A DNA stretch of 64,000 nucleotides. It comes from Xiphias gladius. Its lineage: Eukaryota; Chordata; Actinopteri; Istiophoriformes; Xiphiidae. Shown piece by piece: positions 4,054 to 64,000 of this stretch. The DNA is taken from positions 12,843,213 through 12,907,212 of the forward strand of contig NC_053408.1 in assembly GCF_016859285.1 (NCBI RefSeq). The letters are read 5' to 3'. Made by a program: the position numbers and the translations under genes. Under the pieces are notes generated by a model. It had not been told where the DNA came from. It did not search any database and worked only from the letters and a program-made list of their open reading frames with translations. The stretch's first letter is position 1; each line of letters begins with the position of its first letter.

Positions 4054-5213
4054 CTATCCAGCCTTTTCCTTCATCCCTCCGATTGCTCTCCTCCGTTTGA
4101 GGTTGGTGAAGAGCAGTGCAAAGTTGATAATATATGTTGACACGCAGACCATGCAGAAATCCCCCAGAACAAAGGCGAGAATAGATGCAAGATAGAGCGA
4201 GCCGGCCACTGACACCCAGGAGGAGAGGACCAAAAACACTGCTGCTTTCTTGGACAATAACAGTCCTATGATAAAGACAGAAACAAAGATTTTAGACCAT
4301 TGATAAAAGACACCACATAAGCAATATAAATCGTGCATAAACTATGACTGATAAACTTTGTGTAAGAATCAAATATAATGATATAATTTCACCAACAAAA
4401 TATGCAATGCGAAAATACCTGAAGTGCAGGGCTGGTCATGGTTCACAAAAATGCTGGAATGCAAACAATATTTTGCCTAGAAGATACTCTGGACTATAAA
4501 TAGCCCAGAACTATAATTTGCATAAGACAATGACAGACTAACCAAGGCCCATCTGGAGAGTGTAAAATATGATGCCAAGGAGGCTGTTGGGCTGGTTCAG
4601 AGGGCTATCTTGGGCCACAAAGAACTGGACCAAACCAAACCCACGTCCCCATCTGCCAAAGAAAAGAAAGGGAAACGGTCAGAACAACATATCATTGAAG
4701 ATTAAGAGATAGCAATTTGACGGGGGAAGTCAAGGGATATCTGCTTGGTATTCCAACGATGTAAAATAGTAGCTGATGTGAAGCACTTCCAGAGGAATGT
4801 TACACGTGGCAATGAAAGGGGGTCGGAACTGCCATGAAAAATGCAGATGTCAGAGTTTACGAGTAAAAGTTAGGAGACCGAAATGAACCGGATCTCGCTA
4901 CAGAACAAGGCGAGATCTGCTGGTTCTGCACAACGGCGCGGGCACGGAGCACTAAAGCAAAAACAGGAATTTAAAAAGGTATATAAATAAATGAAGAAAT
5001 AATGGAATAACCAACCTACCTGGAGGTGAAAACTTTGGAGCAGCTCACGGACTCCCCCAGGTCGCACATCGCCCTGTAATCTGGGTTTCTCTCCCGGGAC
5101 AGCTCGACGTGAAGCGCATAAACCGAGAGAGCCAGGCCAAAAACGCACAAGAGGACGCGCGCTTTTCTCTCCCATGTCGGCATCCCCTGGGTACCAGCCG
5201 CCGCCGCCGCCAT
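4054..5213 (-). CDS. vkorc1: Vitamin K epoxide reductase complex subunit 1 (VKORC1)
   Basis: This gene encodes the ER membrane reductase that regenerates vitamin K hydroquinone for gamma-carboxylation of clotting factors and other Gla proteins. Three exons on the minus strand (5213-5020, 4652-4543, 4265-4054) join in frame to 171 aa. The pair Cys50/Cys58 corresponds to the loop cysteines of human VKORC1, and the catalytic CXXC is Cys139-Met-Val-Cys142, followed by Thr145-Tyr146 of the warfarin-site region. Four hydrophobic segments are visible (about 18-36, 91-104, 108-126 and 128-155). The second exon is 110 bp. The start was chosen at the alanine-rich ATG because frame, Kozak context and length fit. 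The paralogue VKORC1L1 is less likely because the exon 1 text ([19 protein letters not shown]) follows VKORC1 more closely. The gene is head-to-head with mapk7. Confidence 0.95.
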
Positions 5214-5324
5214 GTTATTGCGAGACAATGTTGGTGTAGGACACGACAACAGGACGCTACGGGATTCAAACTTCACTGAACCGGCCTCCTGGCGAGGGCG
5301 ACGTGTTAAAAGCCAGATTCTCTC

Positions 5325-5371
5325 TTTCGATTGGTCTGATCGACTTCTGCCGCTGCCTCTCATTGGGCGGT
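5325..5371 (-). promoter_or_regulatory. Putative vkorc1 promoter with two CCAAT boxes and a GC box
   Basis: About 120-160 bp upstream of the vkorc1 start codon there are two inverted CCAAT boxes on the plus strand (ATTGG at 5330-5334 and 5362-5366); the second overlaps a GGGCGG GC box (5365-5370). Spacing and orientation suit a TATA-less housekeeping promoter for the minus-strand gene. The transcription start is not defined by the sequence. Confidence 0.5.
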
Positions 5372-5689
5372 CGGGTACAGATGTTGGACCAGCCAGAGGG
5401 GTGTTTACTGTGTATTTACTGTGGACTTCAGTCCTTCTGGCCTCTAGGGAAAATGTAAAAAATTCCCTCGTTATACACTGCGTTAGTGGATTTCAGCACA
5501 ATTTTAATGTTGTATTTGATTGAGATAGTGCTAATTTTTCACTACTTTGTACCTTACTCACCAGTTTTGGCCGAGGCCCAGAACCAGGCCCCTCAAACTC
5601 AAGGATCACTTGCTTCTTTAGTATTGCATTATATGACAGATACGATAACCACGTGTTTTCGACTTAAAATCTTGAGCTTCAAAGTAAAC

Positions 5690-7780: not shown

Positions 7781-13744
<5,964 letters not shown>

Positions 13745-13918: not shown

Positions 13919-13924
13919 AATAAA
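13919..13924 (+). terminator. Likely mapk7 polyadenylation signal
   Basis: AATAAA occurs 175 bp after the mapk7 stop codon, at the end of an AT-rich stretch that would be the 3' UTR. It is the first canonical hexamer downstream on the plus strand. Confidence 0.6.
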
Positions 13925-14402: not shown

Positions 14403-17400
14403 TTATCTCTGAAGCAGCATCAGCAGAGTGGACAAACAGCTGCCCAACACAGCAGCCCTCCCACACCAGTTCTGATCAGCTCGGCCATACAGCCTGATCT
14501 CTTGTATCGTGTCGCTGATGAAGCTTGAGTAGCTGGTCAGTCTGGTGTACACACCTGGCTGGTTTGGGTGAGCACAGCCCAGTCCAAAACTCACGACCCC
14601 AGCCTGCACCCAGGTCCCATTTACCATTTGGCAGACAAGAGGCCCTCCTGAATCACCCTGGAAAAACAACACAAACACACACACAAACTCATTCAGGTGT
14701 GTGTGTGTGTGTGTGTGGGGGGTTTCACAGACAATGGATGGAGGCAGAAAAGTAGCAATCCAAGTTACTTTCAATGGAGGTTATTGCTTTTTCTCATCTA
14801 TACAAGTATGTATTTGTGAATGTACACACAGCAGCACAAACAGCTGATCCAACAGTACCTGGCAGGAGTCCTTGCCACCCTCCTGGTAGCCAGCGCAGAT
14901 CATGTCATACAGGATGTCCACCTGCTCCGTCGGGTTCATCTGGTACATCTCCTGACATGAACTCTTGGAGATGATTGGCACCTGCACTTCCTGCAGAGTT
15001 CCGACTCCTGGCAGAGGGACTGAGGGGGACAAAGACAGACAGACAGATGGAAGATGAAGAACAAAAGGAGTGTAAGACTCTTGAATTTCTTCAACTGAAC
15101 AGGTGGCCAGTAAGCTTTCTGCTACTATCTAATATAGTTTAAAAGGACAGTACTTCTTTCCAGTATGAATTTTCAATTACAAAACACTGATTTTGGCATC
15201 TGGATTGTGTTTCATACTATTTATTGTCCTTTCTATTGTTTTAACGCTTTTTGTATTTTGTCTTTGTGTAGACATAACCAGTTGTCTGCTGAATCTGTTC
15301 TTTACATTGTGTATTTTGTATAGTGTATGTGAATATTGATTAGTATGACATAAGTCAGAACCTATCCAGGGATACCATTACTACCAATACTAATGGATAC
15401 TATATGAGAGTGCCAAGTTTCAGCTTTCATTTTAGTTTACGTCAATATAGAAGTAACTGTGTCTGAGATATAGGCCTTTTAACACGTAGAGCCCAAATTG
15501 CATGGGTTCAAAAGTAACTGGAAACCTGACTATTTAAAGGTTTCTTGGGCAGCTGTGGGTTGTGTGAATGTTAGTCAAAGAACTATTAAAAGGTAGTTGG
15601 GTTTGTCAAAAACCAACAGTTGGGTACAGTCTAAAAAAGCTGGTGTGGCCTGGTAGACCGATTAGCACAGGTCTGTTTGGAGTCAAATTTGTGTGATGAA
15701 GATAAACCTCTTTATGACTGAAAAAAAAAAAAAAAGGAAACTGTTAGTCCTGGAACGATGAAACATAAAAAAATCTCTGTTCAAAGAAAGAGTTCATGAC
15801 CCAAAGCCACCACCTCATCTGTCAAACATGCTGGTGGTTCTGTCATGGCTCTGGCATGTATGGCTGCCAGTGGAGCTGGCACACTGGCATTTATCGATCA
15901 TTTCACTGTTGATAGAAAGAACAGGATGAATGCAGAGGTATACACGAGCATTCTGTGAGCTCAGATTCAGTCAGACGCATCAAAACTCATTGGCCAACAT
16001 TTCATCACTCGGCAGGACAATGACTCTAAACATACGGGCTTTTCAGGGTGAAGAGGTGGAATATCCTCGGCTGGCCAAGTCAATCACCTGATCTCAGTCC
16101 GACTGAGTAGCAGTCCACTTGGTGAAGACCAAAGGCAGAGAGACCCCACAACAAGCAAGAGCTGACGGAGGCTGCAGTGAAGCTCTGGGAGAGCTGTCCC
16201 ATTACTTTTGAACCCCTAGGCTTTCAGCACTATGTGTTAAAAGGGCTATACCTCCCACACAGTTCTCTCTCTCTTGATGTAAACCTCAAATTAAAGCTGA
16301 GACGTGACACTTTAATGTAGAAGCCATTATTTTTATTTCAAACTGAATGTGCTGAAGCACACAGCCTGAAGAACAATAAATATGTGTAACTGTCTAAATA
16401 ATCGTGGTCTGGACTGTATTTGCATGCCGGAGTTCTAGAAAAAAATAAAACAGCCATTTGGTGACTGCTGAAACATTAAACTGCTGAATAAAAGTGGTCT
16501 GCACAAATGCTAAAACGAGGTGAAGAATTCAACAAGCCCTACCATCATCCCGTATGTTCCCCCAGCCAGTGACAGAGCACAACATGCCACTTGGGAACAG
16601 AGTGCTAGACGTGGGCAAGCAGACGGGACGGACGTGATCTGACCAGGTTACTGGGCTGGACAGCTGCACCAGCGCTAAATCCTTCCCACTGTGAGGCTCG
16701 CTGTAGCCGGATGGGATCACCACCTGGCTCACGCGATGCGATGACTGGTGCTGGTTAATGCCATTCAGCTGGTACCGGCCAGCGTAGATGATGTAAGAGC
16801 TCACATCCGACGGACTGAAAGAAGAAGGGGAAGACTGAATGGAACCCGCTAGACTGGAAAGCAAGGGGAACCTGAAATGTGAAACCTCTAAATTTTACAC
16901 TGTCAAAAGGTTAAAATGGCTTCATGGCAACCAGGTGTTCCTTAAAATGGGCTTATTGTTGGTCATATTTTAAAGGAACAACTGTTTCAGGAGGAGAAAA
17001 AAACAAACAAACAAAAAAAAAAACTGTACACACCTGTACTCGCTTTATTAACAAAGTTTTTTGTCCTCAGGCTTTCATCAGGTAAAATCCAGTGACTTAA
17101 ATGATAAACTGAAAGATTTTTTTGGATTTCTCACAGTCAGTTTTTTGATCTGACGCAACAATGTATTAGACTTTCTGTGAGCAGGAACTTCGTGGTCATT
17201 ATTATGTGTAGCGAAAATAATTGGGAAAACTTGATCATTTTACAACTTGAATATGATGTAGTAAGTTTCCTGGTTATCCAAAGAAGAATATTTAAAAAAA
17301 CACTGTCTTTGAATAAATAGATTTTGCTGAAGGGCTTTAACAAAATTGCAGTGGCAATTGCCTAGATTCAAATTCAGACGGCCCACTGAGGAAGCGGAGA

Positions 17401-39000: not shown

Positions 39001-42000
39001 GAGCTCTGTGGCACAGAGGAATAAGATGTATCTGGATTTGGGTGCACAGGCAATACATGTTAGCAGGATGGTTTTTATTGATGGTTTTGGTCTTTTGATG
39101 GGATTTGTTGACAATATGAGAAAAACATAATATCACCATATTATGCTTTAACTTTGGGTTAAGCAGAAAAAAGAATTAAATCTCAAAAACTAAAATCTCA
39201 TAGAGAATACACAGTGTCTACAACTTTGTTATAATACCAACTCTATTCTTGTCTGTAGTATCCACAGCTACCCGTCGCCCTCCCTCTCACCCGGCCTGCC
39301 TAAAGATAATGTGGAGACAATCCTGACTCACGCCTTCAAAGCCTGGAGTGACGCGGCCCCCTTGCGTTTCCGTCACTTGCCGAGTGACGGCAGTGGGGCT
39401 AAAGCTGGAGGGGACATCAGAGTGTCTTTTTCCCGTCTGCTGCATGACGACGGGTACCCTTTTGACGGGAAGGGTGGCACCCTGGCCCATGCCTTCTTCC
39501 CTGGCAGGGATGAAGTGGCGGGTGACACACACTTTGATGATCATGAGATCTGGAGCTACGGAGGTATTTACCGATTGAAATCGTGATGGATGAATGATGG
39601 CTCGAGGACCTGTCCTACCTTAGAAATGTAGAATGTAATGCGAGAGTGATCTATGGTTATCAATGAAGTAAACAGAGTTCTTGGTGAAAAAAACAAAAAG
39701 AGGAAAAGACATCTGCACATTCAGTGACATAAAACTACCAATTTATGGTTGTTTGTGTGATCCAGAAACACTTTTGCCTCACACTTCCTCAGGTGACAGC
39801 AGCAGCACAGACTTGTTCACAGTTGCAGTGCATGAATTTGGCCACGCGCTGGGCCTGTCCCATTCCTCCACTGATCCGTCCATCATGAGGCCATACTACC
39901 AGGGTCCTGTGAAAGACATTCACAACTTCAAGCTGGACCTGGACGACAGGCTGGCTATCCAGCAGCTTTACGGTCAGTGACCAGGTCGAACTGCCTGTGT
40001 TCTGAATGAGAGTAAATCTCAAGCTAATGTCTGTTACGTTTATTACGTACCCACTACAGAATGTATCGATATGTTGTGTCTTTGTCTGATAAGAAATCAT
40101 CTGAGGAAACAGTGGGGTAAACATAAACTCCTTTTGACGGCTGTACCAGATGCTGCAGTCCTCCCACTGCTTTATTTTATGGTTTTAATTTGGCTGTTCA
40201 AAGGAACGACATGGAATTTAATCCACAGGGAATAGATGAAAAGAGGTAGGAGGTAAAAGTACACTTTGTCGGTCATAAAAGGTGGGGAAAAAAACACTAC
40301 AGCAGTGCTAGCAGCTCTATAAGGCTGTATATGTTGGCAAAGCAGTAATTTGAGCTAAATGCTAAAGGTCAGCTCACAGTGACAGTGCTATAATGCTAAT
40401 GTTTAGCAGGCATGATACCTACCATGTTGTCCGTCTTCGTTTGGCGTGTTTGCATGCCAACATTTTCTTCAGCATTGTGTCCTATCACCATTCTTTCATA
40501 GGTGTGAAGGATGGCACTGACACTGGTGTTGATCCTAACCTCCCACGCCTGCCCACTCCTTCTTCTCCGAGAGCAACACAGCTGTGAGTAGAGCCAAATC
40601 CAATCAATGCTTCTCTGCATCCATTCATACAATAAGCAGATTTCAGTTGGTTTTTCAAACTATGAATCCTATCCTATCCATGCACTCAGTTTACTCATGG
40701 GCAAATTTACGATGATGAGTAATTTAAGACCAGTTATGCAGATAAAAACCTTCCTATCGACCCTTACTTCGATAGCGTTTGGTCTTGTTGCACCCTCTAG
40801 TGAATTTTTTAGCAAACTACATTCTAGAAAATAAAATTTGTGTTGAATATCCAAAAATTTGCTTTAACATAACTTTTCCCATCCAGTTCTGACCCCTCGT
40901 TCCACGAACGCTGCCAGGGAGGCTTTGACGCAGTGGCAAATATCAGGGGTGAGGTCTTCTTTTTTAAAGGTAAGTGGAACCCATTCACACAAAAAAGTGA
41001 AATTTCACAAAATAAAGATGTTCTTCAAAATCTCCAAAATGATGTTAATTGCCTACGTTGTTCATGTAACAAAAAGATGTTGGCGGGTATTTTAGTTTTA
41101 TAGATAGACTTGGTGATCCCATTTATCATTTATACTGTGTCTGAATATACGTGTTCACTCTCCTTTCTCGGACAGGTGCACAGTTCTGGAGAACTCAGCA
41201 AGATGGGTCTTTACTGTCCCTCAATCCAGCTCAGATTAAAAACTTCTGGATTGGCCTTCCACCAGGAACAAATAAGATTGACGCTGTGTATGAGAGGAGA
41301 AGCGACAGCAATATCATCTTCTTCATTGGTAAAAAATCAAATCTTATGGTTTAGTGTCTTTTTGGTGAATCAAATTTGGCTATTTTGAGTCAGAGTACAA
41401 GATTTGAACATTGTTGTTGCTTCTCGTGTCTTCGATTGATGTTATTTTGAAGGTGGTGGTTTTGAGCAGTAACAAGAGCTTCATTAAACTAATAATAGCA
41501 TCAGCATTAATCTTAAAAGCAGAAGAAATAGTTATAAATAAGGATGTATAGTTTTAACTTTGGGAAAATGCAGTAGCTACCCGAGCCTGGTCTTATTTAA
41601 AAAAAACCTCTGCATTTATACTGTAGTTTAAAACACACACTTAAGTCTTCTACTGCTTCTCTTATTTCCTTCCGCTGCTTCTAAGGACACTAGCACAAAC
41701 AACATCTGCTATGCTGTTAAATCTTAAGTAGGTTTAACTGATCTGATTTGATTGTGTCATACAACAACATAGAAATAATACACTGGTCCAAATACTCACA
41801 AAATAAATCAAGAAAGAAGAAAAATCCTTACCAAAAAACAGTCAATCCAAATCGAATGTGTGTGTAAAGACTAAAAAAGAAAAACAATCAACAACAAATA
41901 AACCTTTGAATATTAAACACTGTATTATTATTATGTATTATTGTTATTGTTATTATCATACAGTGTACCGCAGGTGTCTACAGTTATACCAGCAGTTTTG

Positions 42001-44438
42001 TGAGGCTGCACTTATGCGCAGCTTTGAGCTAAATGCTAACATGCTGATGTTTAGGAGGTATAATGTTTATCAGGTTTACCATCCTCTTTTAGCATGTTAG
42101 CATAGTAGTATTTGCTTATTAGTAATGAACACAAAGTACAGCTGAGACTGGTGGGAAAGTCAGTATTTTTGCCACTGTTATTTGATCATAAACCGAAGTG
42201 TTGGACAAGTTGGAATTTTTAGACTCGATGATGAAAAGTCAGTTATTTTACAATTCATCATGAGCGGATATGAATGCTTGTACCAAATCTTATGGAAATC
42301 CATCCAATAGTATTAGATGGTTGAATTTTTCAATCAAAGTGGTGGGAAGTCTGAGGGCTGTCTGGCAAATCAACATCGTCGTCTCTACTCTTTACATTTC
42401 CTTTTTTAGGTTTTTATACCTGTTTTGGTTTAGTTTCCTAATTGTTGATGGCGTTATTTGTTACAATGTGCAATGTGTTAGATGGTTTAGATGTGTCCAT
42501 ATGTGTCCTTTTGCCTCTGATACATACATCTGCAAAAATTACAAACTCTGGTTTGACTCTAATTTGCATAAGCAAATTCTGAAATGTTCTCTCTCACACT
42601 TTCCTCCATCTGTCCAGGATCTCAGTACTGGGTCTTCAAAGACACGGTAGCCATGAGCGGTTACCCTCGGCCCCTCTCTGAATGGGGCATGAGGACAAAG
42701 AGGGGGGCATTGGTGGACAAGGTGGATGCAGCCTTTACCTGGGCTCATAACGGCAAGACCTACCTATTCAGCGGAGGGGAGTTTTGGAGGTTTGACGAGA
42801 GCCGTAAAGATAAACAGGTGACCAGGAACCCGGAGCCAGGCTACCCACGGGACAACAGCCTCTGGGCAGGAGTGCCCTCCAACATGGATGACATCATCAG
42901 CTGGGGAGAAGGTAACACTGTGTTTAGAAATTTGAACACGTGATGAATTTCTGAAACCGGTGCTAAACAAATAAACGAAACCATAGAGAAGGTTATTCCA
43001 GGTTGAAGACATTTTTCAACAGCTATGCACAAGCTGCTGGAAGGTATGAATTGTTGTCAAAGCAATGAAAGAGATCTAATCAAAGTCAAGATAAGAAGAA
43101 GTAAACACCATAAATCAACTGTCTGACTTGAGTAACAGATAAACAAACAATTATAAAAACCAGACCAGAATTATTCACATCCTTAAATTAAAGGATCCCT
43201 GTAGAGTTTTTGACCTCTAGTAGCGAGAAGTAGCGAAAAATACACAGGCTGGGTGACTCATCCTGCGGTTAGTTTCACACTGTTCCGCTGATTGACAATT
43301 GGTGGTGTTAACACACCAACAAATGTAGCAATGTGCCAACAAAGGCAGCTAGCAAGCATTCATGGGTGTAAAGAATTCACAATTTAAAATACTTGAGTTG
43401 AGTTTTCTTGTGAACGAACAAAAGCTCTGTTTACATTCACTGTTTCTCACCCCAACACACTGTGTCATCCCTGCGCCCCCATTTCTTTGTGCGTTGCCGC
43501 CAACTGCATATCCGTGGGGTAGTGTGCATTGGAAGGACCGGGTTAGCACCTCACCCAGAGATGCAAAAATAACAGCTCTTAGTCTATAACAAGACTAGGA
43601 GGCTACAGCCATGCTAGCAGCTCTGCTTTGAGCTAAACACCAACGTCAGCATGTCAACAAGGCTCACGATGACAGTGCTAGCGTGTTGATGGTCGAACGT
43701 GCCTACCATTTGCCGAAAATTTGAATTTTGACCTGTTGATGGCACTAGATGAAAAGAAAAGGGAGCACCATAGTTATTCTGAGGGGGACATGAAAGATAA
43801 TTATGAACCTCATGGTGGTGCAAAGTCATTAGGATGAATCCTCTGGACACCATGAATGTCTGTACAAAAAATAATGGCAATCCATCCAGTTTTTATAAAC
43901 TGTTAAGATGTTTTGAATTAAAAATAACTTGCAAAGTGAGTAGTAACTATTGCTTAAAGATAAATGTAGTAAAGTACAAAGTACAAAATTTCCCCCTGAA
44001 ATGTAGTGGAGCTGGAGTATAAAGTAGCAGTAAATGGAAATATTTAAGTGAGTTACTTTCTACCACTGCTTTTGTGTAACATCTCTATTCTAGTTTATAA
44101 TTTACTAAATGTCTTACTCATTGTGTGATAAAAAAAATTAAATAAAGGAATGAGAGTTACACTGCTGCTGCTGCTGCTCTTTAGGAGATGCCTACTTCTT
44201 CAAAGACAACTTCTACTGGGTATTAAAGAACGGAGGACTGAACCAAGATGTTGTCACTCCTAAATCGATTGCTGTAGACTGGCTCAGATGTCCCGCTCCA
44301 CCTTCCACATCCACTCCAAACAATCCTCAAATCCCAAAGGACTGCAGATGTGACTTAAGGGGATCATCTTCATTTCTAAGAAGCAGTTGGATCCTCCTGA
44401 TCTCTGCTTTATTGGTAATTACTGAGTTTAGAAAGTAG
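36018..44438 (+). CDS. mmp25: Matrix metalloproteinase 25 (MT6-MMP), GPI-anchored type
   Basis: A cell-surface zinc endopeptidase. Ten coding exons (36018-36101, 37551-37683, 37809-37953, 39259-39563, 39793-39972, 40502-40583, 40887-40969, 41176-41328, 42618-42911, 44185-44438) join in frame to 570 aa. Order: signal peptide (1-20), propeptide with cysteine switch PRCSLPD (Cys85), furin site KRRRRRKR ending at Arg105 before YALSG, catalytic domain with [11 protein letters not shown] (His236, Glu237, His240, His246) and the following Met turn (IMRPYYQGP), a proline-rich hinge, a four-blade hemopexin domain bounded by Cys319 and Cys522, a cysteine-containing stem and a hydrophobic tail ([13 protein letters not shown]). 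The tail, the furin site and the absence of a cytoplasmic domain mark the GPI-anchored MT-MMPs. YALSG and the hinge favour MMP25 over MMP17. Confidence 0.92.
38435..38600. repeat. Teleost dispersed repeat with 'ggcaaggcaagtttatt' head
   Basis: The block begins 'aaggcaaggcaagtttattt', continues with 'caaagtgctttacata' and ends in A-rich text. This arrangement is widespread in teleost genomes. It lies in intron 3 of mmp25 and explains the end of a 168-codon open frame there. Confidence 0.6.
40300..40460. repeat. Interspersed repeat, family B copy 1 (mmp25 intron)
   Basis: Shares 'gctagcagctct', 'gagctaaatgctaa', 'cagtgctataatgctaatgt' and 'ttagcaggcatgat' with the copies at 41985-42345 and 43600-43905. 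It is a teleost-type dispersed repeat, truncated at its right end next to the sixth coding exon. Confidence 0.6.
41985..42345. repeat. Interspersed repeat, family B copy 2 (mmp25 intron)
   Basis: The longest copy: 'gagctaaatgctaacatgct', 'gatgtttaggaggtataat', 'agcatgttagcat', 'gaacacaaagtacagctgag', 'cataaaccgaagtgttggac' and 'aaatccatccaatagta'. It shares block order with the copies at 40300 and 43600. Confidence 0.7.
43600..43905. repeat. Interspersed repeat, family B copy 3 (mmp25 intron)
   Basis: Contains 'gctagcagctctg', 'gagctaaacaccaacgtcag', 'gatggcactagatgaaaag', 'cattaggatgaatcctctgg', 'accatgaatgtctgtaca' and 'ggcaatccatcca'. It sits in the last intron of mmp25. Confidence 0.7.
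43945..44080. repeat. Interspersed repeat, family C copy
   Basis: Carries 'gtagtaaagtacaaagtac', 'ccctgaaatgtagtggagct', 'ataaagtagcagtaaatgg' and 'gagttactttctaccactg', the consensus order of the AGTACT-type repeat. It directly follows the family B copy in the same intron. Confidence 0.65.
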
Positions 44439-47557: not shown

Positions 47558-49486
47558 CTAACTCCTCCCCAGAGCGAGGCTCAGGGCCATCAGCCCCAAG
47601 GAGTAGCAGGTTGTGGAGGAAGTGCTGCTGCTGGCGGGTTGCGTTGTGACCGGCTGCGCCGGCTGGAGGTTTCTGTAGACATTGATCGTGTAAGGTGATG
47701 AGCCGTTGGAGACGCGCACCGTTGTGCTGAAGAGGTCAATCTGGGAACGAGATAGGGAGCCACTTAGCTGCGCGAAGCACTGGCGAAACGTTTGAGCCGG
47801 CCTCGGCGCGAAAGGCGCACGAGTAGAACACTCACCAGATCTTTGCTGACTTTGATCGACTCCTTGAACACAGTCCAGACCACCGCCTCATTGCAAGTGG
47901 GGGTGGTCAGGGAGCCGAGGTAGCGGTAGTACTTGGTGCGATCCACCCCGTCCAGGAGATCATCCAGCGAAATCCCAGGTGCCACTGAGACAGAATCGCC
48001 TGAGGACAGAAACACGACCTCTGAAAGGGGACTGCAGCTGACACGCAACTGTGTTACAGAACAGTGGGACGAATTTTTCCGCAAGAAAACAAAAGTGAAA
48101 CGTCTCCGTACTGCTGTTTGTGATGTTGGCCAGATAGGAAGTCAGCGTGCGCCAGCTTGCGGGTTGGCCCGTTGCATTACCTGACATTTCCTTTATAAAA
48201 TAAATAAATAAATAAATAAGTGACATTTGACCATTTGAAACACACACTGAGCTAAAGAAGGGTCTGATACTCAGCTGAATGAGGTTGGAGACATAACCTT
48301 GAAGCATATTTGCAAAAACTTGAATGCATCTCTCCTCACCTCAATGAAGAAACCGAGGGCAGCAAGTCCCGTGGGGTCTGCCAAAGCCTGAGTTATGTTT
48401 CCTTTGTGGGATGACTTGAGATTCACAATGTGCAACTGCGGGAGTGAAGTAAAGACGGAATGTGATTTTAAAATATGGATTTATTGCTGTAACTCCAATT
48501 TATATCTTAATATAAAAAAATCAAATCAAATCAAATAAACTGCATACATACCTCCATGGGGTAGCGCTTGCCATTCACAGTGTGCTCAGAGCCGGGGACG
48601 GAGGAGCCGTTGCCCCAGTGCAAGTGGAACTGCAGGCTTTCATAGTCCTCGGACAGATCTCCTCCTGAAACCCTGACCCCGCTTTCCAATTTAACCTTGA
48701 CTGGGGGAGGTTAAAAATGAAGAGGAACAAGAACACACGGGATGGACGAGTAAAACCGAAACTGACGAGAAACAGGAGGAATCTGTTTAATCAGCCAGGT
48801 GCTGTGACCGGTGCTGATGACTATTTCATTCCAGCATGAGTATTTTTGTTAAAAAAAAAAAAAAAAAAACAAAACAAAGCACAATTTTCGAAAATGCTTC
48901 CACGTTGCATAAACCAAAGACAACCAAAAAGAAATCTGGCACCGCCTGAGAGGGCTCCCACGCCCACCCCTCACCTGTCTTGCCAGTGTTCTCGATCTTT
49001 TGCAGCGCGGAGGTTCTGCTGAAGTTATGAAAGGTGAACGCAGTCAGATTGGCATCGGGTTTGGCGGATGCTGAGACGATGTCGATGGGCGACTGTCGGG
49101 TGCCGTTGCAATACTGGGGCGCGATGACTGGCCAGGTGGTGTCATCTGTAAAAGAAAGAGAGACCAGACTTGGAGTAGCGGAAAGGGGAGCAGCGGCTGA
49201 GATGTTAGGATGATACTGTGGCCGTTTAGAGATAGGAGGGGAGATTTACTCACTGCAGCTCGGCAGGTGATAACACCAGGCTTGGGGAGGAAAAGAATAT
49301 GTAGTTATCGCTCACCGCTCGTTCATGACAAACGGCCTCCGTAGAGACGCAGCGTTTATCCAATGAGTCAGTTATGAATCCGAGATGGAAAAAGCGGGTC
49401 AAATACCTACCGACGGAGCCTGTTGCACAACGGGCGCTCGGTGCGAGGGCGCAGAGGGCAAGCGCAGCGACTACGAGGCGCTCCAT
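47558..49486 (-). CDS. Single-domain extracellular alpha-carbonic anhydrase (CA4/CA15 type), probably GPI-anchored
   Basis: An enzyme for CO2/bicarbonate interconversion at the cell surface. Eight coding exons on the minus strand (49486-49411, 49280-49254, 49145-48975, 48700-48552, 48435-48340, 48190-48112, 47999-47836, 47740-47558) join in frame to 314 aa. A signal peptide (1-20) precedes WCYHLPSC (Cys28, Cys34) and Cys47 with its partner Cys235, as in the CA4 disulfide set. Zinc ligands are His117, His119 and His143; Thr231-Thr232 form the SLTTPTC motif. The proton-shuttle histidine position (His64 of CA2) is Lys90 (ENTGKTV). Potential N-glycosylation sites are frequent. The tail ends in a short hydrophobic segment (YSLGLMALSLAL), consistent with a GPI signal. 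ATG directly follows a splice acceptor, so a noncoding 5' exon exists. It is more divergent than the two domains of the neighbouring gene are from each other. Confidence 0.9.
48196..48218. repeat. AAAT microsatellite
   Basis: About five AAAT/AATA units immediately upstream (in the transcript) of the acceptor of the sixth carbonic anhydrase exon, so that the acceptor is preceded by TTTA repeats instead of an ordinary polypyrimidine tract. Confidence 0.7.
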
Positions 49487-49784
49487 CTAAAATAACAGGC
49501 GAAAAAAGACAATTGATGGTCATCAGTTAGATCAAATGGTGTCCAATTGGGGAAAAACAAAACAAACACAAAAAGCTACTTTTTAAAATATTTCTGGCTT
49601 TTTTTTTTTTTAATTATTAAAATAATCACAAACCAAGGCCAACATTTTAAAATGACTCACTCGAATGAAAAAAAAAACAGTTCAGCAAAAACAAAACAAC
49701 AAAAAAAAGTCCGTTCCAGACAAGGAGAGCAGATCTTTCTGCGGCAGCTGAAACCAGTTGACCTGAGCAGCAGTCGCGTCTTAC

Positions 49785-49825
49785 CCTTGACACACCTGTA
49801 CCTCCTCTCTGTCTTCTAACAGCTG
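49785..49825 (-). other. Candidate noncoding 5' exon of the single-domain carbonic anhydrase
   Basis: The start codon at 49486 directly follows an acceptor (TTTTAG), so an upstream exon is required. A good minus-strand donor (CAAGG followed by GTAAGA) lies at 49785/49784, and an AATAAAAA TATA-like motif at about 49853-49845 would place initiation near 49820. Confidence 0.45.
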
Positions 49826-52800: not shown

Positions 52801-53489
52801 GGCAGAAAGTGTTTGAGAACCAGTGACGTAGCCAATAGTTCAATAGTTAGCGGGTATAAAGGGGACAATGTCAGGTTACAGGCCTACAATTTACAAATAC
52901 TTATTATCCAATTTATAGCAGAAGATGCTATAATCTGCCAGACGAGGCTGCTATGTTTTAATGCTCAAATAACCCAAGGCTTTCTGGTTTCCACCCCCAA
53001 ATTTTATCCCCATTCTCACGCAAGTTGAGTCAGAATTTGGTAAAACCTGAGCGACAAGGACAGGTCAGAAATGAGGGCGTTTGCTTGTGTGGCTGTGTTT
53101 CTGAAGCTTATGAAAGCGCAACACCTACAGATTCCTCCAGGCAGTTCTGTAGAGTTGTACACCTATGGTATGAGCAGGGAAACAGGAGCTTTGCCAAGTC
53201 AATGGTTTCGCTCTTCTGCTTCACAGACTATTTTACTAAATTTCGACAATGCATTTCGAAATAGAAATGGTGTTCTGGCAGTTTGAGCTGCTTGCTCAAC
53301 TTGAGAAAAAAGTTGAATAAAAGTGCTTGGGGTGAGGTAGCTCACTCGGTCCGGCGATAATAAATGGATGCCAGACCAAATGCATTTAAGAATAAGGTGT
53401 CTCTGCCAAGTGTACTGGTTGGGTTTTCTTAATTCATTTAAAATTAGTTAATTTCATTATTAGCTCATTCCTACTTTGACCCACTTTAG

Positions 53490-53560
53490 TTGATTTAATT
53501 TCGTAGACGCTTTTGTGTGAAGCAACTTACAACAAGTGCATTCAAACTCAACTATACTTT
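53490..53560. repeat. Teleost dispersed repeat tail ('cgctttt..gcgacttacaa' type)
   Basis: The text 'gtagacgcttttgtgtgaag' followed by 'caacttacaacaagtgcatt' matches the well-known teleost repeat end whose consensus reads roughly 'agacgcttttatccaaagcg' and 'acttacaataagtgcatt'. Only a short fragment is present. Confidence 0.5.
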
Positions 53561-55429
53561 ACCTTTATAAACTTTGGTAATGCGAGTGAGTCAGGGCGAG
53601 GTTGGCTTGTCATTAAATTTGTACCAGCTGATTTACAAGGGTTTATATTCTGTCCTGTGCAGATTTAGTGTGTTTGCTCATGGTGCGGCCTCCTGAGATT
53701 CAAGTATTTGTTAATAGGACTGTATTCAATGAGTAGTGATGGGGGCGTTTCAATGACCTTTTATATAGCTTTGGTAGTCAGGATTAATGACTCCTGTGTA
53801 TTTTGACTCATACAAGGTATGGTCGTGTCTTACAGATATGGTGGTGTTTTATCAGATCGCACTGAATTGTGTTCTCGAGCCACAGGGAGGATAACCTCTA
53901 CTGTCTTCCTCGAGGTGCCGTTTTACTGTAAAGTGTAAAAGATTTTTCTAATACAGATTTGGGTGTGTCCTGATAGACAAAACATGATGTAGCAGCATTG
54001 CTCTTCTCCTGGTTTCAGATTACACTTTAGGATACCACTGTTTGTTCCTATCTGGAAGAAAGACTTGCCTTTATTTAAAGTAATATTGTCTCAGTTTTAG
54101 GCTTAGCAGTGAATGCATTTCCTTTTAGACAGAATGAGTATTAGACATCAAATTCAATAGATTACTCTCATGTGGCAGAGTTTCTTTCTTGTTCCTAAAA
54201 GAGCACATCAGATGGTTAGATCAAGCAGATTTGCAGGACATGTTACGTGCTCGGGGAAGTATTTTGTACTCTTGTTTATATAACCGGGTACAGTCGTATC
54301 AGTTAAATCAAACTGAATTCAACTAGCGTACAACTAATTTAGCACAGGTTTACTGTATTTGTGTGTTAAATTTAAAGAAATCTCCTGCAATTGCAGGATT
54401 TTTTTTTTTTTTTTAAAAACATGCAGCACTACATTTGCCTGTAGATGCTTCATTCACTTTTGGGACATCGGTCATGTTTTTATCCAGTGAGTCACATAAC
54501 AATGCAAAACATTGGTGATTAAGATAACACAAATTGATCAAATTCCATTTGCATTATACACGTTATTCAAAATGTTTTCCTCGAAGGAAATGCAGGCTCA
54601 CATAAATTAAACATCTGGTTTACTGGTAGATTTGTGGGCCTTCAACCTCTTCTAACACATGAAATGATGTTGAAAAGAGAAGTGCCTAAAACTATCACCA
54701 TGCCAATAAAAAGTGGCCATAAAGATGACCTGTTTGAGTTGTGTTGTTGGTTAATATAGTGGACTGATTTAGACCTATTGAAATATGGTAAATATAAAGC
54801 TTCTAAAAACCAACAGTAAGTGACACCAATACAATTGTTTATTTAATTTTCACTGGTTACAGTGATAGATTTTCCCGCTGATAAAATGCACAACACTCAC
54901 TAAAATATTTTTTTTTTTTGCCTCATGTGGTCAACAACTGTAATTAGTGGTTAGCATAGTGGACAGTCTTGAATTACCTGAAATATAATTGTTCATTTTG
55001 TTTAATATATACACTGTACAAGTTTTGAAATAGCAAATGCATATATGATTAGATTGAACACCGGCTCCACTTTCCAACAAATCTAGAGAGTTGATTTGTG
55101 TGTGGTCATCTTGCAATTTTTAGTATTTTTTACTACTATAGTTGAAGTTGTTTAGAGAGTCTGATGACACCCTGGAGTTGAATAAACCATGTTAAGGTTT
55201 TTTTTTTTAAAAATCTAAAAACTTCACTGGTCAGCCAAAAGTTACCATTATCTTGGTTGTGAGATTATATAACCACATACTAAAAATTTCAAAGTGACCA
55301 CTGAAACACCACTCTCCCTTTTGCTAAGAAATATAGAAATAATCTGAAGAGTGCAAAACTGCTAATTAGTGCAATTTGTGATTATTCTTCACAGCGGTTC
55401 CAGTTAGTTAACCCTTTCACAGGTGCAAA

Positions 55430-58400
55430 TTAAATGAAAAAGACACCGAGACATGCCAGGAGCAAAAACGGTATGATGGGTCCAGGGGCACTGGCTGCTG
55501 ATCTGGTGGTGTAGACTGTCCTGCTATGAAGAGACTGCGTAGGCCGAAACACGTTGCGATATCCTGCCTGTCTCGGGAATAGCAGCATCTGGTGGGGTTG
55601 AAGCAAACGGTAGCTGTCATTTAGGACAGACTGAGATTTACAGCCACTCTCTTGACTCGATCTACATCTGGTCGCTTATTTATTCAAACATTATGTTCAT
55701 AACATGAGGCAACCCCTAAAAACATTAACACATTTTTTTATATATTTTTCTCATATATCATAGACACATTAAATAGCCATATGATACACGCCACCCAATG
55801 AAGGGTGTGACTTTTTTTTTTTTAATCTTTAAAAAAAAAAAAAACAAGGTGCAGTAAATACTTGCAGCATGTGGAGAGATTAACCGTTCTCATTAGTGGC
55901 AGTTCCGCCTAGCTGAATTAAAGTCGGAACCAGCCGGACGACATTCCCCTTTAGTATAATCTAAAAATAAGGTCACGTCATTTGCTTTGATTGTCCCTGG
56001 TAAGGACATATCATTACCTTACGGCAGGATCAGGCATCGCCTTTACAATTACCTGTGTTTAAATCCCATATGCCACCTATCCTCAACTGTTAATACTGTT
56101 CATAATCCCGTTCAAGTAATTATGCATTAAAAACTGCATTTAAATCATACATCAAATCTTTTAATTTCAACCACCGGAGTTAACTCTATTTGAATAGTTT
56201 TGCATAGAGCAATGCTAATTGTGCTTTTTTTTTTTTTTTTTTTTTTTTAAATTCTGGATCAGTGTGTTTGAGGTGTCTTCAGCACCTACCAGATTTCGGT
56301 CCAATTTGATAGACTCTTTGAAAATTGTCCAAACCACAGCTTCATTGCACGAAGGGGTGGTTAAGGAGCCATTGTAGCGGTAGTATTTAGCCCGGTTCAC
56401 ACTGCCGAGCAAGTCATCAATCGAGATCTCTTCTGTGACTTCAACTTCTGAGCCTATATTGAGGCAGAAACGCAAAAATGTAGCAGCACATTTAGATCCG
56501 CACAGTCAGTATTTTTGAAAGGTTATCCGCATTACAGCAAGTGGGCACTCACTGATGTTTGGAATAGCTGAGAGGTAGTGGGTCAGTTTTTTCCAGGCTC
56601 CCTTATCAGATGTCGGACTTGATGTGGGATTTGTCTACAGAAACAAACAGGGTGAACAATTAAGAACATTTGACTATAGTTGTCTCAGTTATCAACATAT
56701 AGGCTCTGGCCTAAGCAAGATACACAACTTACATCATGATGTTCGGAACTGCTGCTGCTGCTTTTGGTAGTATCTGCAGCCTAGAAAATTGATATTGAGA
56801 AAAGTCTTAAACAATAGACTCACTTGTTTGATCAAATTTAGACTGGAGAGAAAAGAAAAAACAATTTACAACAGAAAAAAAAAACAAAAAACAAAAAAAA
56901 AAAAAACCCCTGTTTTGTCATTCAGGCATTAATCATTCTGTAAAATCGGAGCTAAAAAGAATTGCATGTGTAGGGGTGATATTTAGTGTCTAGACATTAA
57001 CCTGATAACTCTGCAGGTATACACGTATGACGTTTAGTGATGAATGAGAGTAGATCGGGATCTTACCATTCTTGTCTCTTATTAGATGAAATGTTGGTAT
57101 GTCACTGTAGGTGATGTTGAGTGATATTTCAAGCTGTCACCATGAGCTAGCTGGGTGCCCCCCCACCCCTTTCATGTTGTATAACTGTGCTACTTCAAGA
57201 TTTTCATACAGTATGCCTGTTTGCCAAATGTCAACTGTGTTTGGTGTTGATGGGAAACATTTAAACAGCATGTCCAGACTATGGCAATAAGTATACCGAG
57301 ACTGTCATTTGCAACATATTCACATGCTTTGTTTGGCCCATTGCTTTCTTAACTGGAAACAGAAGTGTAGTCTTCAGCTAATTACTAGGCATGTACTGTA
57401 AATACAACAGGTGGAAAGCTAGACCAAATTGTTACATCGGAAGTAGGCTATTAAAGTTATACCACACACTAATTGTATAAGTGGTGTGTGAATCTTAAAC
57501 TTTTTTTGTTATTAGTATACAAGAAATCTACATACATAATTGTTTTATGCTAACAGGAAATGATACAATTCATGCACCTTTAGTTTTTTAACTCCAAACT
57601 GCCACTACCAATTAAACTTAGAAATAGCAACATGTTTTCCCAAAAAAATGTAATAGTTATTTGTTTTTCTGAATTTTCCTTGGTGGTGTTTCACCACCAT
57701 CCACCTTTTTTTCCCCCGCCCGTCCTTCCAGCTGTGAGCAGCAACGGTCCAACAGCACTCAAAAATCAGGGGTATTTTAGTATGCATGCTGGCTGAACAT
57801 TACCTCAATAAAGAATCCCAGAACTGCCAGGCCGTTAGGAGTCTGTATTGCCTCATCCAAAGTCAAATCCTTCCTCTTGTTCACTATATGTAACTGGGCA
57901 AAGACACAATTAAGGATACACAGTATGCAATGACAAAAGCAAAATCTATTACACAGCAATGCCTGTAAAGCAACAACACAGTTGTTCAGGGCTTGTAACT
58001 ACCTCCATTGGGTATCTTTTTGAATCCACTGTGTGCTCTGAGCCCGGAGAGTCATTTGATGTGGAGCCCCAATGGAAGTGGAACTGAAGGGTGGAGTAGA
58101 CGTATCCCAAACCTCCCCCTGACACCTCCACCATGTTCTCCTTCAGTACACACTTCACTGGGGGTTGAGAGACAATAAAAAAGGAAAAGTTTGGCTGGCT
58201 TACATTTCAAAAATAGTAAAAAAAAAAAAAAACAAATATGGGAGTCGTCGTCTTTTATCCATGTCAGCAACAATTTCTCATTTTTAGGTGTCATTGTCAT
58301 TTGACAAAATAATCATCTCGTATCAAAAAACTAACAAACTACAGTTAACTTAAGCTTTAGTTTTGTTTTGGACTCAGTAGCATCCATTCTTAAAAATCAA

Positions 58401-58846
58401 AAATTGTAGGTTGTGAATACACGGATTTAACAAGCTTAAAAAAGTTGGTCCATCTTTTGGGTCTTTTTAAAATTTAAAAAACGATGTCCATAAAAAAACA
58501 GTCCATAAGAGGAGAGAAAACCGTCAAACCTGCATGGCCTGTGTTAGTGATGTACTTGATGGTATGATTGTCGTCAAACTTTGTATAGGTGAGGGCATCA
58601 AGGTGTTCGTCCACCACAGTGTTCCGTGTCTCAATGTTTATGGGTGACTGCTGTTCACCACCACAGTAGGAGTGAGACAGAAGGTGCCACTGAGAGGGGC
58701 CGTACTCTGAGGGGAGTGAGGAAAACCAAAGTTTAAGACGAGCCTAAATCTTGTTCTGACAGCACTGTTTAGTCATCAGTTTTGCACAGTAGCAGCACAG
58801 GTTTGCAAATACATACCGCAGTGATCATCATAGCACCATGGATGAC
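55430..58846 (-). other. Domain B of the tandem carbonic anhydrase (exons 9-16)
   Basis: Residues 282-582 form a second complete domain. Zinc ligands are His377, His379 and His404; the shuttle residue is His349 (NTGH); Thr507-Thr508 are in SLTTPSC; cysteines are Cys287/Cys291 and Cys306/Cys511. Exon 9 (30 bp, PWCYDDHC) is the counterpart of exon 2 of the single-domain genes, and no signal-peptide exon precedes it in the 92 bp intron. A small extra exon (56780-56733) encodes [16 protein letters not shown], absent from domain A and the neighbouring gene. The tail after Ser560 is hydrophobic with small residues before it, as in GPI signals. Confidence 0.85.
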
Positions 58847-61800
58847 CTGAAGAATAGAAGAACAGTCATATTCAAAGTGTCAACTCGGATTCATAAATCT
58901 ATGTTGTGGGTCATATTTGCGGGATTTTCCCAACTCACTGAGAGGGAGAGGAGTTGCAGGGGAGGCAAACACTTGACGCTTGCCGAGGGCCTGTGCAGGC
59001 CGATAAACATTGGTGAGTCCCGTACTAATGGGAAACTGCTGAATCTGAGAACAGAACAAGACAAACATTTACTCCAACACAGTGAAGGTACTAGGCAAAA
59101 AATGTTTTAAAGTTGTTACTAAGTAGCAGCGTCTCTTAGATTCTGAGTTTTACTCTGGGAATTCACTTTCAAAGTGCATTCTCACAAAAAAAAAAAAAAA
59201 AAAAAAAAAAAGAAATGCTGTCTTCACAATCAAAAAAAAAAAAAAAAAAAAAATGAAGTATGTCAGTAATTTCAAACCAGCTGGTTACTGACCAACTCCA
59301 AGAAAATATACTCACACATCCAAAACCATAAATAAGGATTTTTTTTGTGTTATAATTCAATAAGACAGTACTGCAGTAAATGCTACTTTTATGAAGGATA
59401 CAGATCAGGTTTATTTGATTATTTGAGATTGTGTCAAAATGCATTCTTTGACCACTTGACCTGCTGTATTGTTGCCAACATCTACTCAATTACAATGTTT
59501 TAGCTCGCTTTCAGATCTGATTGTTTTATGCATTTTACAGATTGGTATGCTTAAAAGGGGAGGTCAAAGAGTCATACACCTGCTGAGTCACAAGACACAG
59601 CCAAGAACAGGCCACATGCAGAGAGACGTGCAGTTTACTATCTGACAAGTGCTGTCACATAGATAAGATGAAAGATTACATACATGCATAACATGTCTTT
59701 CTACAGAGAAATTACTCACTTTTTTTTTTTTTAAATTTACACAGTTACATGTGGCTTGCCTGGCATTCTCTCTTGTTGCTACAGTCAGAATAAAACAAAC
59801 CTGATTATCAAACACGATAATCAAACAAGACACCAGCATATACCAGTATGTTGCGGCACCTGTCTGATCTGGCGATCCTTGCCTGCTTACATCAGTCGCT
59901 GCTTGTGTGATGTGATTCCACTTGCAATAGGTCATCACAATTTTCACTGGTTCAGCTTGACAGTATAATTAACAAATTCTGTTCTAATTCAGTTGTAAAT
60001 GGACACACGGAAATAAAAGGCTCTCTGTACAGTATTTCCTCACATAACTGGTTAACGGGAAATGCAGCAAGACTGGTAGGAAACTCCCACACCCACTGTT
60101 GACAGACTGATTGTCAATCCAAAGAATTTACTGCCTTCTTAAACCACTAATTCGGCTCAGTAGTATAGGTGATTCATACGGGAGTCACAACTTAATGGAC
60201 TTCTTAAACTTAAGCTACAGTTAATATTTACAACAAATATACAACATGATCTCCAGTGCTAATCTTCAATGCCTACAGATTAGAGATTTTTTTCCACTGA
60301 TTTGAACCACTAATGTACAGTTATTTTACAGAGCACTAATCTTTGTATGGTGTCTAATCATTATATTAGAGTTAAAACTGCTATAACCATTTGTTTGTGC
60401 CCATGTGTTTGTCTACTGAGCAGGTGCGGTGGGTTTTTTTAAAGAGCATTTTTGCTGAAAACACTTGCCTGCTGTTTCCGCAGAAAAAAAAAAAACACTA
60501 CAAGAGCAATATAAATGAACCAAAAGATTAACATTGTGGGCCAAACATTTGAAAATTAACTCCAATTCAATATAAAGCAAGCTCTGCCAAGCCAATGGAA
60601 GCTGTTGATTTAGGTGATAATTCTGAGGTTCATCAATACAAACACCACCTTTCTACCTGGCATCTCATTTTCACAGACATTTGATACATACTTGTAAAAA
60701 TATTGATTATAGCCGCTTTTCCATTTTAGGCTGCCCTTTTGATATTTCTTGGCCTTTTATTGCCTTTTTTTTCCCAATACCTCTTTGTTTTTGCGATTTG
60801 GCTGCTGTAAAATTGCAAACAAGCCCTTTAAATGTTTGAAAGGCCCTTACATTCCCCCTCTCTGTTGAGGAGCATGTTTTGGCTAAACATGGCCTTTCCT
60901 CATCCTATCCTGTAGAAGAAAGGTTCCCAGGTTGCCCAACTCACCAGATTTTTGTTGATGTTGATTGGCTCATGAAAGACCGTCCATGCGACTGCTTCAT
61001 TGCATTTGGGGGTGGTCAGGGAGCCCATGTACCGATAGAACTTTGTGAGGTCAACATTTCCAATTAGGTCATCGATAGAGATGTTGTGGTTCATGTTAAC
61101 CTCAGTGTCTGTGGAAAGATGCAAGCCAGCTGAATCACCATAAGTGGCTACAAAGTATTTTTTGTTTTTTTTTTTTTTTTTTTTACCTCACACCAATCTC
61201 ACCTGTTCCATTTTTTTCTTTGACTCAAAAATTATAACTTGACTATCAAAATAAAAGCATACCATCTGAGCACAGGTGTGACAGAAATTAATACTCTCTC
61301 ATTCTCATACTCTCTCATTCAAATATGTTGGCACTGGACATGTCTCTGGTACCTCTATAGACGACATACAACCTGCTGTATTGGAAAAACAGGTGTGAAA
61401 TCTTAGAGGAAACAAAAATCAAATTACCTGTGATGTTTGTCAGGTAAGATGTGAGCATGTTCCATGGTCCTGACATATTGCCATCTTCTGTTGCCTATAG
61501 GTAGAAGCCATTATAAATTACATTTGTAATACAAGCATGATAATGTTCAAATGAACTCTATACCTTGTATATGTTTTGTTTTTTGTAAATTCTGTTATCT
61601 GTGGAGAGTCCAATTGTTACAATTTTAGTGGGTTGTTTATGTTTAGATGCAGCTATCAGGGAGCCAGTGCATGACCTGTGATATCAAGGTGTAAAAATCT
61701 GGGTGAGTGTGCGAAATAAATTTCATTAGGTACAACCTATTTCCCATGACCAAGCTGAAATTCGGCCGAAAATTGACGTTTTCAATACATAATGTTTATT

Positions 61801-63541
61801 GAGAGTATAGCCATTATAAGACTTTTCCTTGGGATAATAATTGTGTACACATACATTTATGAAAAACCCAAGGACAGCAATTCCCTCCGAATCTGCCGTG
61901 GCCTGGTCCACAGTAAGACCTTTCTTCAGACTGACAATGTGCATCTACAAGAGATTACATAAATGATTAAGAAGCAGCAAGTTAAAAATAAAAAAAAAAA
62001 TCGCAAAAAAGAGGAGAAGCATGTCATCTATAGTGAAAGCCAAAAACTGGAGTACCTCCATTGGATATCTGTGCTCATCAATCATGTGCTCCGAGCCTGG
62101 ATGATGTTCTGTATCACCCCAGTGAAAGTGAAACTGGATTGTAGAATAAATTCCATTAAGTCCACCTCCGCTCACTTCAACTTCATTTTCCTTCAAAATG
62201 CATTTCACTACGCATTGGAAAGATGGAGAAGCATGTTTATGCAGTTACAGTCAGTACAGTTAGTATACATAAGTTTGATTAATCAAATGAATTGCTTTGT
62301 GCCTTTTCTAGACTTCTGTCACAAATACCCATATTGTATATAGTACACAGTCAATTCAAAGGCAAGGACAAAAGGACAATTGGTGCCTCTGTTTCTGTAC
62401 CTGTATGTCCATTGTTTGTGATGGACTTGATGACATGTTGAGAGGAGAAGTTGACGAGGGTAAAGTTAAGCAGGGTAGGGTCCGTCTGAACATGACTGGT
62501 GACTATATTAATAGGAGACTGTCTTTTTCCTCCACAGAAAGAACCAGGGAGGTCTTCCCAGTGGGTTGGGGAGTGGTCTATGAAAGATAGAGGAGCTCTT
62601 AATGCTGAGGACCAGTGGAAACTAATGATGGTTTGATCCAAATCATTGAGCGAGTCAGAAATGTCCTTACTTACCGCAGCCAGTATAGCACCATTCACTT
62701 CCAGCAGCTGAAACAGAAATATAGCCAACATACAATAAATATTGCAGGAGCCAAGTGATACAAAAAGTGGCGTTACATAATGAAAAAAGGGAAATACAGC
62801 CTGGCCGGTGGAATATTTTCCACCAAACAGGGGTTTCCCCCTCTGAACTCTTTATATGGCTTCGTAACAGTCTAAGGTCCAAAGAAGTAAAATTATCTAT
62901 TTGACATATCATAATAAGCTTTCTTTGATGAAGAAAATCTTTGTTCTTTTCCTTCTTCATTATTCATGTCATGACCCCTCAGATTTACTTTGTGATCTTT
63001 TAGAGGGGCCTGACCTCTAGGTTGGGAACCACTGAACTGACTGACTCCATCTACAAGAGTAAAAAAAAAAAAAAAAATCTAATCATTTAATACAAAAATA
63101 ATATGTGTCAGTCTGCCATATTTCTGCAGGAGAAGTACTTTACTTTTCTTACTTTGTGTACCTAATACTTCTGAAGTATTTTGACTTTATTGCAATGCTA
63201 CTTTAGTCATGGATCTGAGTACTTTCTGCACCACTCTCTAATAAATACCAAGGTCAGGAAACTTTGGCAGGGGTCAGGCAGTGGAAAGCTTTGTCTGTGC
63301 GCTTTTTTTTTTTTTTTTGTTTGTTTTAAAACAACATGCACCTTCAAATAAATCCTAAATAAACTGCATCTTGCAGGAAACATGGTTATAGATAAAAATT
63401 ATAGCTATGATACCTCAGGAAGCAGAAGTAGATAGAGCTCATTAACAAATATTTCTTGTAAGTGGAAATTGATGTATTCTACTCACCATATTTTACCAAA
63501 GCTCCCAAACTCAGGCACAGCAGCAGGGAGGCGTGATACAT
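55430..63541 (-). CDS. Tandem two-domain extracellular alpha-carbonic anhydrase (CA4/CA15 type), predicted GPI-anchored
   Basis: Sixteen coding exons on the minus strand join without frame breaks to 582 aa: 63541-63487, 62707-62675, 62577-62401, 62207-62056, 61944-61855, 61494-61428, 61108-60945, 59044-58939, 58846-58817, 58706-58530, 58157-58003, 57893-57804, 56780-56733, 56634-56553, 56453-56290, 55588-55430. A signal peptide (about 1-20) is followed by domain A (22-262), a short linker (263-284), domain B (285-543) and a hydrophobic tail ([12 protein letters not shown]) typical of GPI signals. Each domain has three zinc histidines, the shuttle histidine, the SLTTP motif and the CA4-type cysteines. 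The join at 58939/58846 is phase 1 with consensus GTGAGT and TTCTTCAG sites. The alternative is two genes, the downstream one with an unseen first exon inside the 1.9 kb intron 60944-59045. Single-domain members are about 310 aa. Confidence 0.75.
56222..56247. repeat. Poly-T tract in the last intron of the tandem carbonic anhydrase
   Basis: A run of about 26 T residues on the plus strand lies about 40 bp downstream of the donor of exon 15. Other long A/T homopolymers in the same gene lie near 59187-59211 and 59232-59252. They are simple sequence and prone to length polymorphism. Confidence 0.85.
62965..63055. repeat. Short dispersed repeat ('ggttgggaaccactg' type)
   Basis: The text 'gacccctcagattt' and 'ctaggttgggaaccactga' is a common teleost repeat end. 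A diverged counterpart ('gaagggggtcatgg' and 'gtttgagaaccagtgac') occurs at about 52785-52830. It lies in the first coding intron of the tandem carbonic anhydrase gene. Confidence 0.45.
63065..63245. repeat. Interspersed repeat, family C, inverted copy
   Basis: Shows 'ctgcaggagaagtactttac', 'acttctgaagtatttt' and 'tctgagtactttctgcacca', the inverted AGTACT-type repeat, in the first coding intron of the tandem carbonic anhydrase gene. It is preceded by a poly-A run. Confidence 0.55.
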
Positions 63542-63867
63542 CTTCAGGAGGAAAAGGATATGATTACTGATCACGTCCACCTTCTTCACACAAGCATGGT
63601 GTGGGAAGTGTAACGGTCCACAAACTGAAATCCAATTTAACTACTGAAATAAAAAAAAGAAACCATGGTCCTTTAAGAGCATTAGAAATGGAGCGATGAT
63701 TTGTGATCCTGATTGGTTTCAAATTTTGTTAATTTTGCATGTAATGTGGAAGTGATTAATCTCAGATGACTTGATCAAATTACTGTATTCAGATGAAAAA
63801 GAATAAAATTTGGTAGAAGAATGCTATCTGACAAGTCATGTTTTAAAGGTTTGACAAATCGTCCTAC

Positions 63868-63905
63868 CTTACAGTTCAGGTCTCAAGTCGTTCAGGCCAA
63901 AAAAA
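63868..63905 (-). other. Candidate noncoding 5' exon of the tandem carbonic anhydrase
   Basis: The start codon at 63541 directly follows an acceptor (CTCCTGAAG). A donor-like site (GTAAG followed by GTAGGA) on the minus strand gives an upstream exon ending at 63868. The right edge is not determined; the DNA to the window end is A/T-rich simple sequence without a clear TATA box. Confidence 0.35.
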
Positions 63906-64000
63906 GAAAAAGAAAAATAAAAAATAAAAAAATAAAAAGGTATACCAGTATGAGGTGTCACCTTAAATACATCCAAATACATCCATCAATGAGGAGAAGG

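Follow-up and report, generated by a model that had tools for sequence, protein, structure and literature searches.

Alpha-type carbonic anhydrases (alpha-CAs) with two catalytic domains in one chain are already known from bivalves and a green alga, and the list given in PMC5879104 names Tridacna gigas, T. squamosa, Phreagena okutanii and Dunaliella salina, with no vertebrate among them. The bivalve proteins, DDCA of T. squamosa (601 aa), tgCA of T. gigas and MCACO2 of P. okutanii (594 aa), each carry two alpha-CA domains in a chain of ~580-600 aa, with a signal peptide (DDCA) and a possible glycosylphosphatidylinositol (GPI) site near the C-terminus, while the two-domain D. salina enzyme is largely hydrophilic and has no membrane segment; the advantage of two domains per chain is called enigmatic (PMC5879104). 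In vertebrates, zebrafish ca15a (= ca4c; 324 aa) and ca15b (320 aa), of the CA4/teleost CA15 family, are single-domain sized (PMC9032886), salmonids have tandem CA15b clusters of 4-5 genes (PMC12530279), and zebrafish CA6-pentraxin is a CA that also has a second domain, but a pentraxin and not a CA (PMC9032886, PMC5723433). Here we describe a locus in a 64,000-nt stretch of Xiphias gladius DNA (the window), taken from a contig of 23.8 Mb (genome size 691 Mb). Judged from its sequence, the locus is probably one fused CA4/CA15-like gene, whose product would be a surface enzyme that has two active sites and is held by GPI. No vertebrate two-domain CA was found among the literature matches listed, which does not show its absence from print, fish genome annotations being outside that search.

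The gene model rebuilt from the window runs down the minus strand between 63541 and 55430, and all 15 of its introns have GT-AG borders. Its 16 exons give a spliced open reading frame (ORF) of 1749 nt (582 aa plus stop) that stays intact across every exon, just as an earlier note on this DNA had proposed. The Pfam profile PF00194 (Carb_anhydrase) matches two stretches of the fused chain (474.8 bits, E 9.2e-143), and in place of the single catalytic domain of the CA4/CA15 type the model carries two in one frame, called A and B below; a single-domain CA4-like neighbour, gene C, served for comparison. Each domain keeps six of the six catalytic residues checked, namely the three zinc histidines, Glu106, Thr199 and His64 (CA2 numbering), at the motif positions given in the table, with H87 of A and H349 of B at the His64 site. 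The cysteine pattern of CA4, with two predicted disulfides, is found at matching positions in both. Of the ten N-glycosylation sequons present as sequence motifs in the fused chain, A has six and B the other four. The calculated mass, glycans not counted, is 64.8 kDa for the whole chain and about 60.7 kDa for residues 21-563.

The two ends of the chain are divided between the domains. The 15-residue hydropathy mean exceeds 1.6 only at residues 1-21 and 561-582. A has a hydrophobic signal-like start and an end without an anchor, and B starts with a WCY exon and ends in a GPI-type hydrophobic tail, an arrangement the earlier note had also read from the letters. The 30-bp WCY exon of B resembles exon 2 of A (33 bp) and exon 2 of gene C (27 bp). 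The WCY start, the cysteine pattern and, as judged by hydropathy, the signal-like start and the GPI-type tail are, together with the sequence family, the features shared with CA4 and teleost CA15.

The alignment of A with CA4 runs to V271 and is followed by a linker of 13 residues (272-284), four of them Pro, and then by W285 of B. Since the anchor site of human CA4 lies a few residues past the valine matching V271, A appears to be cut about where its GPI tail should begin. The rebuilt model agrees with the previously proposed junction, a consensus phase-1 donor at the end of exon 8 and, 92 bp further on, phase-1 entry into the PWCY exon of B. The donor scores 5.36 bits against a median of 6.31 for the 15 donors of the gene, and its 9-mer is identical to that of the exon 14 donor; the 92-bp fusion intron is similar to six other introns of the gene (97-111 bp), and pyrimidines make up 79% of the 19 scored bases upstream of its acceptor. 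Reading through past the donor gives Ser and 18 further residues before a stop, with no hydrophobic tail.

We searched the DNA between the domains for the missing halves, the tail of A and the start of B. A scan for signal exons, defined as an ATG, a hydrophobic stretch and a phase-1 donor, recovered the true signal exon of each of the genes A and C. In 60944-58800 it gave one candidate, the ORF at 59839-59749 on the minus strand (donor 5.0 bits); over the 64 kb the scan matched 11 times per strand, the true signal exons included. When the last exons of B and C, exon 8, and the start regions of A and C were compared by tblastn with intron 7 of A and the 92-bp intron, only chance-level matches were obtained. 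Scan and tblastn thus found in these two introns neither a tail that could belong to A nor a signal exon that would be convincing for B, and the observation in the earlier note that B lacks one is qualified by the one weak ORF. Three candidates for a hydrophobic C-terminal tail of A came up, two in intron 7 and one in the open stretch past the read-through stop of exon 8, and with a background of 0.5 per kb none was accepted. No AATAAA or ATTAAA occurs on the minus strand between 59415 and 56165, so there is no polyadenylation (poly(A)) signal soon after exon 8; the two AATAAA of intron 7, at 60761 and 59415, would terminate a transcript ahead of that exon.

The earlier note had inferred that the fusion arose by skipping of a GPI exon and a signal exon, and this part of its account finds no support in the details of the locus. 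In B and C a single last exon encodes both the tail and the C-terminal part of the CA domain, which leaves no separate GPI exon to be skipped, and neither the 92-bp intron nor intron 7 of A gave a remnant tail or a signal exon that convinces. The fusion would be better explained by a loss of DNA from between the two genes than by exon skipping.

The domains are old relatives of each other. A and B are 52.5% identical (137/261 columns of a four-sequence alignment; 48.6% over 284 by BLASTP), A-C and B-C are 45.5% identical each (125/275), and A and CA4 41% (99/241). The best match of the fused chain, and of B alone, among PDB sequences is carbonic anhydrase 4 (5ipz and 1znc, which we take to be human). 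Between A and B the proportion of differing nonsynonymous sites (pN) is 0.32 and that of synonymous sites (pS) 0.77, showing that both domains are under constraint; together with the complete active sites, a pN so far below pS argues that neither domain is accidental. Dating from synonymous change failed, as pS (0.75-0.77) is saturated, and the duplication is therefore old. In a 13-row tree, built partly from crude exon peptides and with the CA4 reference flagged as a long branch, a 95/97 split sets a CA4-like side apart from the other CA types of the genome, and on that side A, B and C form a clade (support 98/92); the tree does not settle the branching order among the three. The CA4-like family and the tandem duplication proposed in the earlier note are supported. 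Fourteen regions had been taken, 13 of them with CA hits; nine of these 13 paralogue loci are in the tree (one, L009, as a row only 44% filled), and L016, L019, L020 and L022 as well as five further CA places lie outside it. The 9.8 kb that follow the end of the window (L014) gave no further CA domains, and among the at least 72 exon matches listed, C9 is the only place with two CA gene-sized sets on one strand within ~3 kb.

The grouping of A and B with gene C of the same genome argues for an origin independent of the bivalve proteins. The fish chain also differs from them in that A and B are 52.5% identical while the domains of MCACO2 have 37% similarity (PMC5879104), and in that hydropathy gives it no membrane segment in the first domain, where PMC5879104 places one in DDCA. 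The occurrence of two-domain alpha-CAs in molluscs such as giant clams, mentioned in the earlier note, is confirmed by the same source.

Several points weigh against one fused gene. The fusion is read from the genomic DNA of one assembly rather than from RNA or protein, and its junction from one vertebrate genome; the signal-like start and the GPI-type tail were called from hydropathy; and phospholipase C did not release clam tgCA despite its possible GPI site (PMC5879104), so a GPI-type tail does not prove that a protein has a simple GPI anchor. The donor at the junction is of moderate quality, below the median of the gene. Chance alone would give 0.083 in-phase donors at least as good in the open stretch of 84 bp, a figure that depends on the donor matrix used and on a stretch picked after the sequence had been seen. 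The junction by itself is for this reason suggestive, and the case rests on the donor together with the two complementary missing halves, which in combination are strong. A signal-peptide-like ORF for B does exist at 59839-59749, the best tblastn match (C start region against intron 7; E 0.28, chance-level) overlaps it, and intron 7, at 1900 bp the longest of the 15, could hide a promoter for B. These last points, the early stop in the exon 8 read-through, and the description of salmonid CA15b copies as separate tandem genes (PMC12530279) would suit two separate genes, A being secreted, unanchored and ending 18 residues past its last spliced codon, and B being GPI-anchored, driven by a promoter and begun by a signal exon that both lie in intron 7, and splicing past exon 8 to its WCY exon. 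We consider this unlikely, because ORFs like the candidate occur 11 times per strand in the window (true signal exons included), poly(A) signals are absent between 59415 and 56165, A would be without the anchor of its family, and the donor and the matching phase would be a coincidence at the expectation just given.

It is similarly improbable that the locus makes both forms, with a read-through chimera that is minor or tissue-limited beside single-domain isoforms, whether these arise because the 92-bp intron is retained or through alternative starts or poly(A) sites. The two AATAAA of intron 7, the moderate donor and the possible signal ORF of B would allow it, but poly(A) site use in intron 7 would truncate domain A ahead of exon 8, and A has no tail of its own, nor B a convincing signal exon. 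That there is no working fused gene, through assembly error or decay of the locus, has in its favour the dependence on a single assembly, but seems very improbable to us: the DNA at 55000-64000 contains no Ns and the DNA likeness of A and B is limited to exons and simple repeats, which makes collapse of near-identical copies unlikely and leaves the two too unlike for confusion, and the 16 exons without a frame break and a pN far below pS do not look like decay.

In the fused-gene reading, two old tandem CA4/CA15-like genes would have merged into one through loss of the DNA that encoded the GPI tail of A together with that for the beginning of B, its signal exon included. The donor at the end of the last exon of A would then splice in phase over 92 bp to the first post-signal exon of B, the product would enter the secretory pathway through the signal peptide of A and form CA4-type disulfides within each domain, and the GPI tail of B would hold it at the outer cell surface, where a covalent pair of zinc sites on one anchor may interconvert CO2 and bicarbonate beside membrane transporters. 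Zebrafish CA15a was located on the outside of ionocytes and at their apical membrane, near Nhe3b and Rhcg1, and is found mainly at ~70 and ~140 kDa, also with 6 M urea and 10 mM dithiothreitol present, which its authors ascribe to stable oligomers (PMC3615223). By analogy, the fusion would fix in the chain a dimer like these oligomers; such a dimer, or the doubling of sites on each anchor, may be its advantage. On balance we lean towards a vertebrate origin, separate from those in clams and algae, of a covalent, GPI-anchored CA with two intact sites that would fix such a dimer.

Some further observations concern the same genes. Both domains have an extra Cys in the same place, C91 and C353 (in VKC, four residues past His64; encoded within 62577-62056 and 58706-58003 on the minus strand), which the alignment does not show in C or CA4 and which could form an interdomain or intermolecular bond. 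After AVLGFF, domain B has two exons (48 and 82 bp) with a Ser-rich insert (56780-56553, minus strand), where A and C have one short exon (67 and 79 bp). Gene C has Lys at the proton-shuttle His64 site (NTGKT, against NNGHT or NTGHA in A, B and CA4), and its activity may be lower for that reason; its exon 6 donor (48112, minus strand) is weak by the donor matrix (1.49 bits), and the boundary may be elsewhere. Searches of NCBIfam, which is prokaryote-oriented, with A and B and of Rfam with 44000-64000 gave no matches. The neighbouring genes at 5019-16894 and 39194-42940 are useful as synteny markers for the locus.

Table 1. Features of the fused carbonic anhydrase locus and its surroundings, in window positions.
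Feature	Position	Strand	Length (nt)	Content	Basis
Exon 1	63487..63541	-	55	start codon and signal-like peptide	gene model, hydrophobic/donor scan, hydropathy
Exon 2	62675..62707	-	33	domain A, WCY exon	gene model
Exon 3	62401..62577	-	177	domain A, His64 region	gene model, motif positions
Exon 4	62056..62207	-	152	domain A, QFHFHW zinc ligands H115, H117; E128	gene model, motif positions
Exon 5	61855..61944	-	90	domain A, zinc ligand H141	gene model, motif positions
Exon 6	61428..61494	-	67	domain A	gene model
Exon 7	60945..61108	-	164	domain A, T223	gene model, motif positions
Exon 8	58939..59044	-	106	end of domain A, most of linker, no GPI tail; phase-1 donor TCA/GTGAGT at 58939/58938	
Fusion intron	58847..58938	-	92		gene model
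Exon 9	58817..58846	-	30	domain B, WCY (PWCY) exon, phase-1 entry	gene model
Exon 10	58530..58706	-	177	domain B, H349	gene model, motif positions
Exon 11	58003..58157	-	155	domain B, H377, H379, E391	gene model, motif positions
Exon 12	57804..57893	-	90	domain B, H404	gene model, motif positions
Exon 13	56733..56780	-	48	domain B, extra exon with Ser-rich insert	gene model, alignment
Exon 14	56553..56634	-	82	domain B; donor TCA/GTGAGT, same as exon 8	gene model
Exon 15	56290..56453	-	164	domain B, T507	gene model, motif positions
Exon 16	55430..55588	-	159	end of domain B, GPI-type hydrophobic tail, stop	gene model, hydropathy
Weak signal-peptide-like ORF	59749..59839	-		phase-1 donor, in intron 7 of A; sole candidate for a separate start of B	
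Gene C	47558..49486	-		neighbouring single-domain CA4-like gene, 8 exons; comparison only, outside the fusion	
VKOR family	5019..5492	-			Pfam
Protein kinase	9383..11065	+		resembles MAPK7 by eye	Pfam
Trypsin exons	14406..14780, 16532..16894	-			Pfam
Matrixin and hemopexin exons	39194..39583, 42572..42940	+			Pfam

If the fused gene is real, its single-domain sister C alongside would let one and two sites per anchor be compared in a fish, and in tissues where surface CA has a role in salt uptake and in keeping the acid-base balance. The locus would then also illustrate clearly how two genes can fuse when one loses its anchor signal and the other its signal exon, the intron phases being compatible. 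Should the fused form prove common in fish databases under automatic names, it would be no rarity but a form of the gene that had gone unnoticed, which would be a smaller matter.

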